Of a stretch of 39,619 bases of DNA, positions 13,938-19,509 are shown in pieces; position 1 is the stretch's first letter, and each line of letters begins with the position of its first letter. Source of the DNA: Pseudanabaena biceps PCC 7429. Lineage in GTDB: Bacteria; Cyanobacteriota; Cyanobacteriia; Pseudanabaenales; Pseudanabaenaceae. The stretch spans positions 1 to 39,619 of the forward strand of contig NZ_ALWB01000015.1 of NCBI RefSeq assembly GCF_000332215.1, in the 5' to 3' direction. Below the pieces are notes generated by a model, which did no database searches, had not been told where the DNA came from, and saw only the letters and a list, made by a program, of their open reading frames with translations. A program made the position numbers and the translations under genes.

Positions 13938-14034
13938 TACCAAAGCTCAAAATGGCTACGCTATTTTGAGCTTTGAAAACCCTTACTGGGTTTAGTTTTT
14001 AATTCACGAAAGTGTGACAACAATTTCGTGAATT
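13938..14034. repeat. Family B element after tldD
   Basis: Two hairpins, AAGCTCAAAATGGC...GCTATTTTGAGCTT and AATTCACGAAAGTGT...ACAATTTCGTGAATT, are joined by the conserved linker AAAACCCTTACTGGGTTTAG. In the first hairpin the single mispair is G-U in sense RNA; the second has one G-A mismatch. The rest of 13908-14259 holds no gene. Confidence 0.85.
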
Positions 14035-16849: not shown

Positions 16850-16946
16850 TACCAAGTTAAGAAATGGCGTAGCCATTTCTTAACTTGAAAACCCTTACTA
16901 GGTTTAGTTTTTAATTCACGAAAGTGTGGTCACACTTTCGTGAATT
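16850..16946. repeat. Family B element
   Basis: Hairpin AAGTTAAGAAATGGC-GTA plus linker GAAAACCCTTACTAGGTTTA plus hairpin AATTCACGAAAGTGT, all well preserved. It is directly followed by a C element at 16949, an adjacency also seen at 4102-4241 and, in reverse order, at 37726-37918. Confidence 0.9.
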
Positions 16947-17125: not shown

Positions 17126-17758
17126 ATGCTCTCTATCCGTAATCTTTGCTATCACCCATCCGCTACTCCTGAGGCAATCCTTAACAATATATCCTTTGAA
17201 CTACAGGATCGGCAATTGGGGTTGATGGTGGGACCTAGTGGTTCTGGCAAAAGTACATTACTCGAAATTTTGGCAGGATTTGTGGAGTGGAATAGTGGCA
17301 GTATTTATTGGAAATCGCAAGAACTAATGCCCGATCACTTGCAGCAAATATGTGGTTTAGTATTTCAGTTTCCCGAACGTCATTTTTGTGGGAGTACTAT
17401 TCTAGAAGAACTCAGATTGGGACATATCGATCTAGATGGCGATCGCATTCAAGGTGCTTTAAGCTCAGTTGGGCTCAGTCATCTCAATCCTAGCAATTCA
17501 CCGCAATCCCTTAGCGGTGGGCAGCAGAGGCGATTAGCCCTTGCCGTACAATTAATTCGCCAGCCCAGCATGCTGTTACTAGACGAACCAACCGCAGGTT
17601 TAGATTGGTCAATGCGCAAACAAATTCTGGGTATTTTGCAAGAGCTTAAAAAAAATTGGACAATTCTAGTTGTTACCCACGATCCTGAAGAACTTGATGA
17701 AATGGCAGATCAGACTTGGTCGATTGATCATGGCAAGATAGGAACAATTCATAAATGA
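17126..17758 (+). CDS. ABC transporter ATP-binding protein (ECF/CbiO-like)
   Basis: This 210-residue stand-alone ATPase has Walker A GPSGSGKST (36-44), a Q-loop at Gln81 in VFQFPERHFCG, signature LSGGQQRR (129-136), Walker B LLLDEP (150-155) and switch His185. The QFPE run after the Q-loop is typical of energy-coupling-factor and CbiO-type ATPases, so I favour an ECF-type role in cofactor or metal uptake. No membrane partner is encoded nearby. Its TGA overlaps the gvpK ATG (ATGA), implying translational coupling with a gas-vesicle gene, which is unexpected. The upstream region is a family B plus C repeat block. Confidence 0.85.
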   Translation: MLSIRNLCYHPSATPEAILNNISFELQDRQLGLMVGPSGSGKSTLLEILAGFVEWNSGSIYWKSQELMPDHLQQICGLVFQFPERHFCGSTILEELRLGHIDLDGDRIQGALSSVGLSHLNPSNSPQSLSGGQQRRLALAVQLIRQPSMLLLDEPTAGLDWSMRKQILGILQELKKNWTILVVTHDPEELDEMADQTWSIDHGKIGTIHK

Positions 17759-18222
17759 GTGATATGACCGATAACAATGCTAATCCTGATAGTTTAATCG
17801 TCAAGCCTAAAAAATCGGGACTAGCCCCCCTAATTCTTACTTTAGTAGAACTATTGCGCCAGCTAATGGAAGCTCAAGTAATTCGGCGCATGGATGCTGA
17901 AAAACTGACAGAATCAGAAATTGAAAGAGCTGCCGATAGTTTACAGGCTTTAGAGCAGCAGATTCTCAATCTTTGCGATGTTCTCGATATTGATCCTGCG
18001 GATCTCAACCTCGATTTAGGAGAATTTGGCAAACTTCTTCCTAAATCTGGCTCCTACTATCCCGATAAATCTTCTAGTGAATCTTCGATTTTAGAATTGC
18101 TCGATCGCTTAATCAGTACTGGTATTGTCCTCGAAGGTGATGTGCAAATTGGCTTAGCGAATATTAATTTAATCGATCTCAAGTTGAAATTATTGCTGAC
18201 TTCTGGTGATCGCACTTCGTAA
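17755..18222 (+). CDS. gvpK: Gas vesicle protein GvpK with C-terminal GvpA/J/S-like segment
   Basis: This 155-residue protein starts at the ATG overlapping the ABC gene stop by 4 bp. Residues 21-95 match GvpK: SGLAPLILTLVELLRQLMEA, then IERAADSLQALEQQI and DLNLDLGEFGKLL. After a Ser-rich linker, residues 111-149 (ILELLDRLISTGIVLEGDVQ and onward) look like the LLDR-ILDKGVV core shared by GvpA, GvpJ and GvpS. The extension may be normal in cyanobacterial GvpK; I could not check. GvpK is an assembly or accessory protein for gas vesicles. No other gvp gene is within reach, so it is an orphan here or a part of a dispersed set. Confidence 0.85.
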   Translation: MSDMTDNNANPDSLIVKPKKSGLAPLILTLVELLRQLMEAQVIRRMDAEKLTESEIERAADSLQALEQQILNLCDVLDIDPADLNLDLGEFGKLLPKSGSYYPDKSSSESSILELLDRLISTGIVLEGDVQIGLANINLIDLKLKLLLTSGDRTS

Positions 18223-18335
18223 TGCCAATTCCCAAAATGGCGTTGCCATTTTGGGAATCTCAAAACCTTACTGGGTTTGTTTTTTAACGTCAGTTCGGGT
18301 TAAGCTGGCAAATTTTAAAAGCCCAAAAGTAAAAG
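18223..18335. repeat. Family B fragment joined to family A half
   Basis: Just after the gvpK stop comes the hairpin ATTCCCAAAATGGC-GTT with the linker CTCAAAACCTTACTGGGTTT. Family A then starts at 18285 (TAACGTCAGTTCGGGTTAAG) and runs to the AAAAGTAAAAG of its second hairpin. There it is cut off by the IS at 18336. The missing half is not found on the far side of the IS. Confidence 0.88.
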
Positions 18336-19509
18336 GGGAGCATCTCAATTAGGCACTGAGTAAATATACTTAGGCAAGATTGAGGTTGAGATAAGCGCAA
18401 CGATGTTTAAGAACTTGGGGAAGATTATCGCGCTTCCACTGAGCACCAGATATTTTGATTCTACGCCCAATTTGCTTGATAGTAGATTCAACAGCACCAG
18501 AGCCAATGGTAATTCCTTGTGTTTGAAAAGCTTGGTAGTCAGGGATACGGAGGCGGTGTCTTTCGAGATAGGCTATAAAGTTCGTAACTTGAGGATTGTC
18601 CCAATCGGCAAAGGCAGCAATGGCTGAGTCGATATTACCCCGCCAGAGGCTAGTTTCAACATCCTGCAACCGTTTGTTAGAACCACCAACCTTATGCAGA
18701 TTTTCCTTGAGATGATACCAATCAAGAATTTCACGTCGTTGCGATGTAGTAGCAATATCTGCCATTAAATTCCACACTCCCGGATGTCCATCTCCTAAAC
18801 AAGTAACTGGGTCAGCCAAAAGCTGTGCATTTTACTGAAGCTAGCAGTTTGTCATTCTCGTTGGAAGAACGCTGCACAAGTTTTGTTTGTTGAGAGTTAC
18901 AGCCTTGTAGTCACGCCATTCACTGGCTTGTCCTTTCTCTGTGCGTAATCTTGCCTTACCACCATCAATACTAAGTTCTGTAATCGTTTCCCCTACTTCT
19001 AATTCTGCAAATTCTTGACGGTGGACTAGCCTCTGCTGGGTACTGTGGTCAACGTATATTCCCGTTAGCTTGTGCAAGTCCCGAGCCGCATTTCGTAAGA
19101 AACGTTGGCACTCAGCAATAGACAATTTGCTTCTAGCTGCGGACTCAATCGACTGCGTTTTTTCAAACCTAATTGTGCAACTTGTTTGACTCTAATTTGC
19201 CATGTTCCTAGACTGGTCTGGATCTTTCTGCTTCTTCCTGTTCTTGTTTTGCTGCTGCTGCTTAAAAAATTTCCGATCTCTGGTGCTACTTCTTTGAGCA
19301 AGTGGTCTCTGACTGCTAATTCTATGCTGTTAAAGCTTTTTAGCTCTTCTTTTGGGGTATTATTCAATAGAATTGCCGCCGCAGCTTTTAGATGTTCTTT
19401 CAGAACTTTGCTTTCTTCGGGTGTCATCTTTTTTTAACCTCATTTTTTATTCATTTTCTCATATGTCATCTATAAGTAGAAATACTCATTGCATTAGTGA
19501 GATGCTCCC
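18336..19509 (-). mobile_element. Insertion sequence, ISKra4-like, 1174 bp
   Basis: Perfect 12-bp terminal inverted repeats GGGAGCATCTCA (18336-18347) and TGAGATGCTCCC (19498-19509) bound a minus-strand transposase split over several frames. The C-terminal part (GDGHPGVWNLMADI, DWYHLKENL, TIGSGAVESTIKQIG) resembles ISKra4-family transposases. No target duplication is evident. The element sits inside a family A copy, whose other half is missing, so a deletion or rearrangement probably followed insertion. Confidence 0.82.
18370..19427 (-). pseudogene. Frameshifted ISKra4-like transposase
   Basis: Three minus-strand frames together make one transposase. The N-terminal part is at 19427 down to about 19090 (begins MTPEESKVLKEHLKAAAAIL, reaches LLLSANVSYE). 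The middle part runs from about 19100 to 18860 (NAARDLHKLTGIYVDHSTQQ through WRDYKAVTL). The catalytic C-terminal part runs from about 18830 to 18370 (LADPVTCLGDGHPGVWNL to the stop). Joins near 19090 and 18850 need frameshifts, and the second lies in a damaged stretch. Some relatives use programmed frameshifting, but a stop codon and more than one shift favour inactivation. Confidence 0.78.

Follow-up and report, generated by a model that had tools for sequence, protein, structure and literature searches.

A gvpK gene set apart from other gas vesicle genes in Pseudanabaena biceps PCC 7429 encodes a GvpK protein with a C-terminal domain resembling GvpS/GvpM

Why does a gvpK gene of the cyanobacterium Pseudanabaena biceps PCC 7429 stand alone beside an ABC ATPase gene, and what is the shell protein-like segment at the end of its product? 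The gene lies in a stretch of 39,619 nucleotides (the window; contig NZ_ALWB01000015.1 of assembly GCF_000332215.1), which is contig C15 of a 5.47-Mb genome in 464 contigs; G, C and L numbers here are our handles for genomes, contigs and loci. A reading made from the sequence alone had described an orphan gvpK with a GvpA/J/S-like tail, coupled to an "ECF-like" ABC ATPase gene, and had proposed that the organism's gvp genes are dispersed or that this GvpK has been recruited elsewhere. In our judgment the explanation that fits best, and is quite likely correct, is that GvpK is here fused to a GvpS/GvpM-type domain, that its isolation comes from dispersal of the gvp genes, and that the ABC neighbor is incidental. 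The features concerned are as follows.

17126..17758, forward strand: ABC ATPase, 210 aa, adjacent to gvpK and most likely outside the gas vesicle system (PF00005, 103.9 bits, cut-off 25).
17755..18222, forward strand: gvpK, 155 aa (152 aa if it starts at the second ATG, 17764), with PF05121 and PF00741.
17809..18039, forward strand: GvpK core domain (PF05121, 107.3 bits in the genome profile search).
18085..18201, forward strand: GvpA-family domain at the C terminus, of GvpS/GvpM type by our assignment (PF00741, 50.5 bits in the genome profile search).

The 155-aa protein is a GvpK whose N-terminal two thirds form the helical GvpK core and whose C-terminal 45 residues form a GvpA-family domain, both matches lying above the Pfam cut-offs. 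PF05121 (GvpK) matches residues 19–95 with 106.6 bits (E 7e-31, cut-off 25), covering profile positions 9–85 of 85, and PF00741 (Gas_vesicle) matches residues 111–149 of the whole protein with 47.4 bits (E 2.1e-12, cut-off 25) over all 39 profile positions. The last 48 residues alone give 51.5 bits with PF00741 (E 1.1e-13), and among the sequences of solved structures the tail matches the gas vesicle shell proteins 8gbs (E 3e-4) and 7r1c (E 6e-3). The sequence-only reading was thus right about the gene and about the likeness of its tail to GvpA/J/S. In GvpA the α1-β1-β2 segment is a helix followed by two strands; an AF2 model of the whole window protein, of moderate confidence (pLDDT 72.8), has a predicted helix at residues 112–121 and predicted strands at 124–134 and 140–150, and the tail modeled alone (pLDDT 62.9, low) takes an arrangement unlike that one. 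With the whole-protein model the best Foldseek match was no better than E 0.99, and the 50 VIA-align matches listed (Z 5.9 or lower) include no gas vesicle protein. These predicted folds carry no weight in our conclusions.

The tail of the window protein is the normal cyanobacterial one, and the gene is already known in kind. All 29 intact gvpK genes in a sample of 38 genomes of the same family carry it. In a phylum sample of 386 genomes, 30 PF05121 matches were read as loci, and in every one the alignment with the window protein reaches at least residue 150; the others, judged by open-frame length only, lie in frames of at least 155 aa, except in G050 (110 aa) and in a stop-riddled extra copy in G320. 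Both PF05121 and PF00741 are found on all 30 proteins of an alignment of the window GvpK with 29 named relatives, among them Nostoc, Planktothrix, Leptolyngbya and Scytonema; these come from a search that used tail peptides among its patterns and kept the best 80 of 175 relatives, which biases them toward tail-bearing genes, and the PF05121-based family and phylum samples are free of that bias. In plasmid records, GvpK matches the window query only to residue 95 in 13 of 14 cases, the fourteenth being from Nostoc; the tail-less proteins come from Streptomyces, Kitasatospora, Nonomuraea, Spartinivicinus, Octadecabacter, Methylocella and haloarchaea. The gvpK gene of Anabaena flos-aquae was reportedly treated by Kinsman and Hayes in 1997. 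Since a 2024 review already states a GvpA-like domain for A. flos-aquae GvpK (PMC10903477), which thus has the same make-up as the window protein and the other cyanobacterial ones, the tail is a known feature.

Which paralog does the tail represent? Gas vesicle producers outside the cyanobacteria have GvpA-family proteins of three kinds, namely A, J and a third called S or M. Serratia is reported to need each of its three GvpA variants, the S and J homologs among them (PMC4982088). Our reference set comes from plasmid records (66 match rows, many of them repeats of one record, from which 20 regions were taken) and comprises 19 non-cyanobacterial loci, each with a J-type and an S/M-type domain by labels that we set from synteny and sequence; 5 of the 19 references labeled S/M are annotated "GvpJ", as is one Streptomyces protein labeled A. 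Profiles were built from 15 A, 19 J and 19 S/M domains, all non-cyanobacterial. With the all-reference profiles, all 69 unique cyanobacterial tails score best as S/M (median 44.6 bits, against 28.2 for J and 15.4 for A), two tails having been moved by hand out of the J bin before scoring. The median S/M lead is 17.1 bits with these profiles and 13.9 bits with bacterial ones, again for 69 of 69. The controls show no misassignment: all 24 cyanobacterial GvpA proteins are placed in A and all 39 GvpJ proteins in J, and leave-one-out recovers 53 of 53. Nearest identity likewise assigns every tail to S/M, with medians of 0.50 for S/M, 0.39 for J and 0.34 for A.

The distribution of the three types agrees with this assignment. 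Standalone domains in the cyanobacterial-phylum loci that we read are of type A (57) or J (82), and S/M-type domains sit on GvpK (174); because the loci overlap (most flanks 1.5–6 kb), these 314 classified domains do not count as independent, and there are 69 unique tails. The sole S/M-type domain off GvpK belongs to G050, a genome of another class, in which an unfused 106-aa GvpK, a gvpF/L-looking gene and the S/M gene are arranged K-L-M as in haloarchaea. Across the 28 family genomes that have gvpA/J genes, non-tail PF00741 matches all score at least 60.8 bits, as A and J domains do, above both the tails (46.9–53.9) and the fused S-type domains of Methylocella and Methylosinus described below (43.5 and 51 bits), and so none of these genomes appears to hold a stray S-type gene.

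The phylogeny of the domains is less decisive. A tree of 47 columns, in which long branches meet, separates A and J from S and the tails at 95/78 (not starred) and gathers the tails into a long-branched group of their own (99/98); it was built, with identical rows dropped, from 17 of the 19 J and 17 of the 19 S/M references, 20 of the 69 tails, 6 of the 24 cyanobacterial A and 10 of the 39 cyanobacterial J sequences. Such a tree is too short to prove the descent of the tail, and AU tests on it accept both a placement with J (p 0.546) and one with A (p 0.613). The tail might then be a domain of GvpJ or GvpA type joined to GvpK, or a separate early branch, with the cyanobacteria doing without GvpS/M. 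Archaeal-only profiles go some way with this alternative, sending 19 of the 69 tails to A (17) or J (2) and the other 50 to S/M, and the 2024 review leaves the type open as "GvpJMS" (PMC10903477). Nevertheless we consider it unlikely: the all-reference and bacterial profiles and the nearest identities uniformly favor S/M, cyanobacterial clusters already have a separate GvpJ, and the unfused GvpK of G050 is paired with a separate S/M-type gene. We infer from the sequences that the S/M identity of the tail probably reflects descent and not mere resemblance.

Comparison with better known systems is informative here. In Bacillus and Streptomyces, GvpS is a small GvpA paralog encoded beside GvpK; an overlap of gvpS with gvpK is described for B. 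megaterium (PMC11445434), and in Streptomyces fungicidicus (where the GvpS name is ours) the two overlap by 4 bp. There S and K are two proteins, S being encoded ahead of K in Streptomyces, whereas the cyanobacteria have one protein with the S-like part after K. In Halobacterium salinarum the order is J-K-L-M and all four are separate; GvpJ, GvpK and GvpM of haloarchaea all bind GvpL (PMC7688916), and the cyanobacterial tail is a poorer fit to archaeal M profiles. Two methylotrophs have, like the window genome, PF00741 and PF05121 in one protein:

L193:5590-6225 and L212:4542-5201: reverse-order fusions of Methylocella tundrae and Methylosinus sp. C49.

In these proteins, which are annotated "GvpJ", the order is opposite to that of the cyanobacteria, with the GvpA-family (S/M-like) domain first, and the fusion looks independent of the cyanobacterial one. 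It is reasonably probable that the cyanobacteria fused GvpK with GvpS/GvpM, fixing a 1:1 stoichiometry, and lost the separate S/M gene, and that methylotrophic alphaproteobacteria joined the same two parts independently in the other order. Among the passages of open-access literature that we saw, no paper names the tail as GvpS/GvpM type or describes a reverse-order fusion, and the GvpS/GvpM character of the tail together with the opposite-order fusion elsewhere is the refinement worth keeping.

What such a fusion would do can be considered in light of work on other gas vesicles. GvpK is described as essential in all four gas vesicle systems studied, with a job that is little known; in B. megaterium the shell protein does not come together with GvpL unless GvpS, GvpK and GvpJ are all present, and a seeding role has been proposed for these three (PMC11445434). 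By analogy, the fused chain would most likely carry the jobs of GvpK and of GvpS (Bacillus) or GvpM (haloarchaea) in gas vesicle nucleation on a single polypeptide. Together with GvpJ and a GvpF/L protein it may form part of an early complex for nucleation that would let GvpA enter the first conical shell; the shell-like tail could then touch GvpA or the tip of the cone, and the GvpK core could bind the other accessory proteins. Gas vesicles have been made in human cells from A. flos-aquae gvpA and gvpNJKFGWV, a set listed without a separate S or M (PMC10344784), and a fused S/M-type domain would account for this. Insertion of the tail into the shell is not established, since earlier work, as summarized in PMC7688916 and PMC11445434, found GvpK missing from purified gas vesicles of other organisms. 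If the two fusions are what they seem, they would be "Rosetta stone" cases and would mean that GvpK and GvpS/M work as a single unit in the gas vesicle seed. The cyanobacterial fusion would then point to the partner of GvpK and its tail would offer a simple experimental handle; for annotation it serves as a warning that one cyanobacterial GvpK gene may cover two functions.

Turning to the isolation of the gene, profiles PF05121, PF00741, PF06386, TIGR02640 and PF05120 match the window contig at gvpK only, and there is no contiguous gvp cluster around it, as had been noted from the sequence. Searches of the same genome, which covered gvpK, gvpA, gvpJ, gvpN, gvpF/L and gvpG (gvpV and gvpW lay outside their scope), found gvpA, gvpN and gvpJ together on C68, two gvpF/L genes, one on C8 and the other on C29, and gvpG on C27. 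A 332-aa gene between gvpA and gvpN on C68 has no Pfam match and is taken for gvpC by its position. The gvp genes found are thus scattered over five contigs including that of gvpK, and this is why gvpK looks orphaned. A PF05121 profile search of the contigs found no second gvpK; neither of the outcomes that would have undone the sequence-only reading, a tail failing GvpA-family models or a full cluster elsewhere with its own gvpK, was seen. Dispersal cannot be put down to assembly fragmentation alone, because relatives show it on single contigs: gvpK (at 0.79 Mb) and gvpA (at 3.42 Mb) are 2.6 Mb apart in the single-contig genome G346, and in G177 they are 0.37 Mb apart on one contig. An assembly artifact is ruled out as its cause by these two genomes. 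That gvp genes can be dispersed has been noted in general terms before (PMC10344784). In G340 and on plasmid p4 of Nostoc sphaeroides, on the other hand, gvpK lies beside gvpJ and gvpA, whereas the window gvpK stands apart. The isolated gvpK on this Pseudanabaena contig is a matter of gene dispersal, not of recruitment, and is no sign of a new function; of the two possibilities first proposed, dispersal holds, with gvp genes on four other contigs, and recruitment is not supported, gvpK being lost together with gvpA (below).

Gene order in relatives hints at where gvpK came from. G391 has a DUF1997 gene, a gvpF/L gene and gvpK in that order; the window genome has, together on C29, DUF1997, gvpF/L and a gene that we take, from its sequence, to be amidohydrolase-like, and a copy of this last gene, 71% identical, comes after gvpK in G386. 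The simplest reading is that gvpK left a gvpF/L locus. In G346 it lies between a DUF2808 gene with what is presumably guaA and two pieces of what is presumably larC. A gene of one sequence cluster (DUF2808 in L079:5343-5945) is directly upstream of gvpK in 11 of 27 loci compared, and is also found upstream of the gvpK remnants of G397 and G398. We also note that G255 (L191:7897-12398) carries three tandem copies of gvpK, repeated every 2.02 kb and 0.77 Mb from the nearest gvpA listed, and that the gvpK frames of L101 and L102 (G177 and G332) stay open upstream for some 285–296 further codons, giving 448 and 432 aa in total, which is either another fusion or a missed internal start.

A scattered gene set might also be a decaying relic, with the window gvpK on its way out, and besides the dispersal itself the decay seen in the relatives G397, G398 and G410 and an apparent broken transposase just downstream of gvpK could be read in this way. 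We regard this as improbable. The window gvpK frame is intact and 55–68% identical to GvpK of cyanobacteria outside the family, and gvpA, gvpN, gvpJ, gvpF/L and gvpG in the same genome are all open without stops; the window gene is an ordinary and probably functional cyanobacterial gvpK. Across the family gvpK and the shell genes come and go together, as their co-occurrence and co-loss indicate. Genomes with an intact gvpK number 29, and 28 of them also have separate gvpA/J-type genes, the exception being G416, a genome only 77% complete. Nine family genomes have no intact gvpK, and five of these (G387, G388, G389, G392 and G404) also have no gvpA-family match; G397 and G398 have a gvpK remnant with a stop and no gvpA, G410 has truncated remains of gvpK and gvpA alike, and in G417 (83% complete) two gvpA-family (gvpA/J-type) genes were found and gvpK was not. 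In the family, gvpK decays where gvpA/J-type genes are lost. In the phylum sample the same 56 of 386 genomes carry PF05121 and PF00741, an overlap that the tail partly guarantees, but 55 of the 56 have at least three PF00741 matches.

The ABC ATPase gene behaves independently of gvpK. The best NCBIfam match of its product is TIGR04521, an energy-coupling-factor (ECF) transporter ATPase, at 146.7 bits and below the cut-off of 330, so that "ECF-like" calls for some qualification. The gene is found in 36 of the 38 family genomes, including six that have neither a gvpA-family match nor an intact gvpK (G387, G388, G389, G397, G398 and G404), and adjoins gvpK in only 11, all of one genus. In G346, G405 and G398 a block of the genes that we take to be tldD, a kinase gene and the ABC gene has no gvpK in the stretch read. 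We propose that the ABC gene is a widespread cyanobacterial gene brought beside gvpK by rearrangement, and most likely there by chance.

The 4-bp overlap (ATGA) itself is real, as had been observed, the two open reading frames being 17126–17758 and 17755–18222, but it occurs in the window genome only and in none of the other ten genomes with adjacent genes. In nine of those ten pairs the ABC protein stops after 205 aa, leaving 59–293 bp before the gvpK match, and these nine spacers contain apparent palindromes. In the window genome and in its closest relative, G399, the spacer is gone and the ABC frame is five codons longer, presumably by deletion, and the overlap looks like a small deletion scar. 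In G399 the homolog of the first gvpK ATG reads ATA; gvpK must therefore start later there, and for this reason the second ATG, at 17764, may be the true start of the window gvpK as well. It is thus highly improbable, despite the 11 adjacencies and an overlap suggestive of translational coupling, that GvpK now works with the ABC protein or its transporter and has left the gas vesicle system. We reject this reading because of where the ABC gene occurs and because gvpK decays with gvpA and not with the ABC gene; the "coupling" of the two genes is not supported as a functional link.

The DNA around the two genes has some further features of its own. Just downstream of gvpK, at 18370-19427 on the reverse strand, three frames read like one broken transposase; the first matches UPF0236 weakly, at 19.1 bits and under its cut-off of 24.3, and the third does not match it. 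A dispersed repeat is present in the window in eight copies at three or fewer mismatches (for example 13978-14002, 16890-16914 and 18263-18287), where shuffled sequences lead one to expect none, and palindromes occur near it (for example 16853-16887, 16913-16946 and 18228-18258). Genome-wide the repeat pattern has 41 exact matches, against none for the control; one lies next to gvpG on C27. These repeats are possibly MITE-like elements that favor local deletions and rearrangements.
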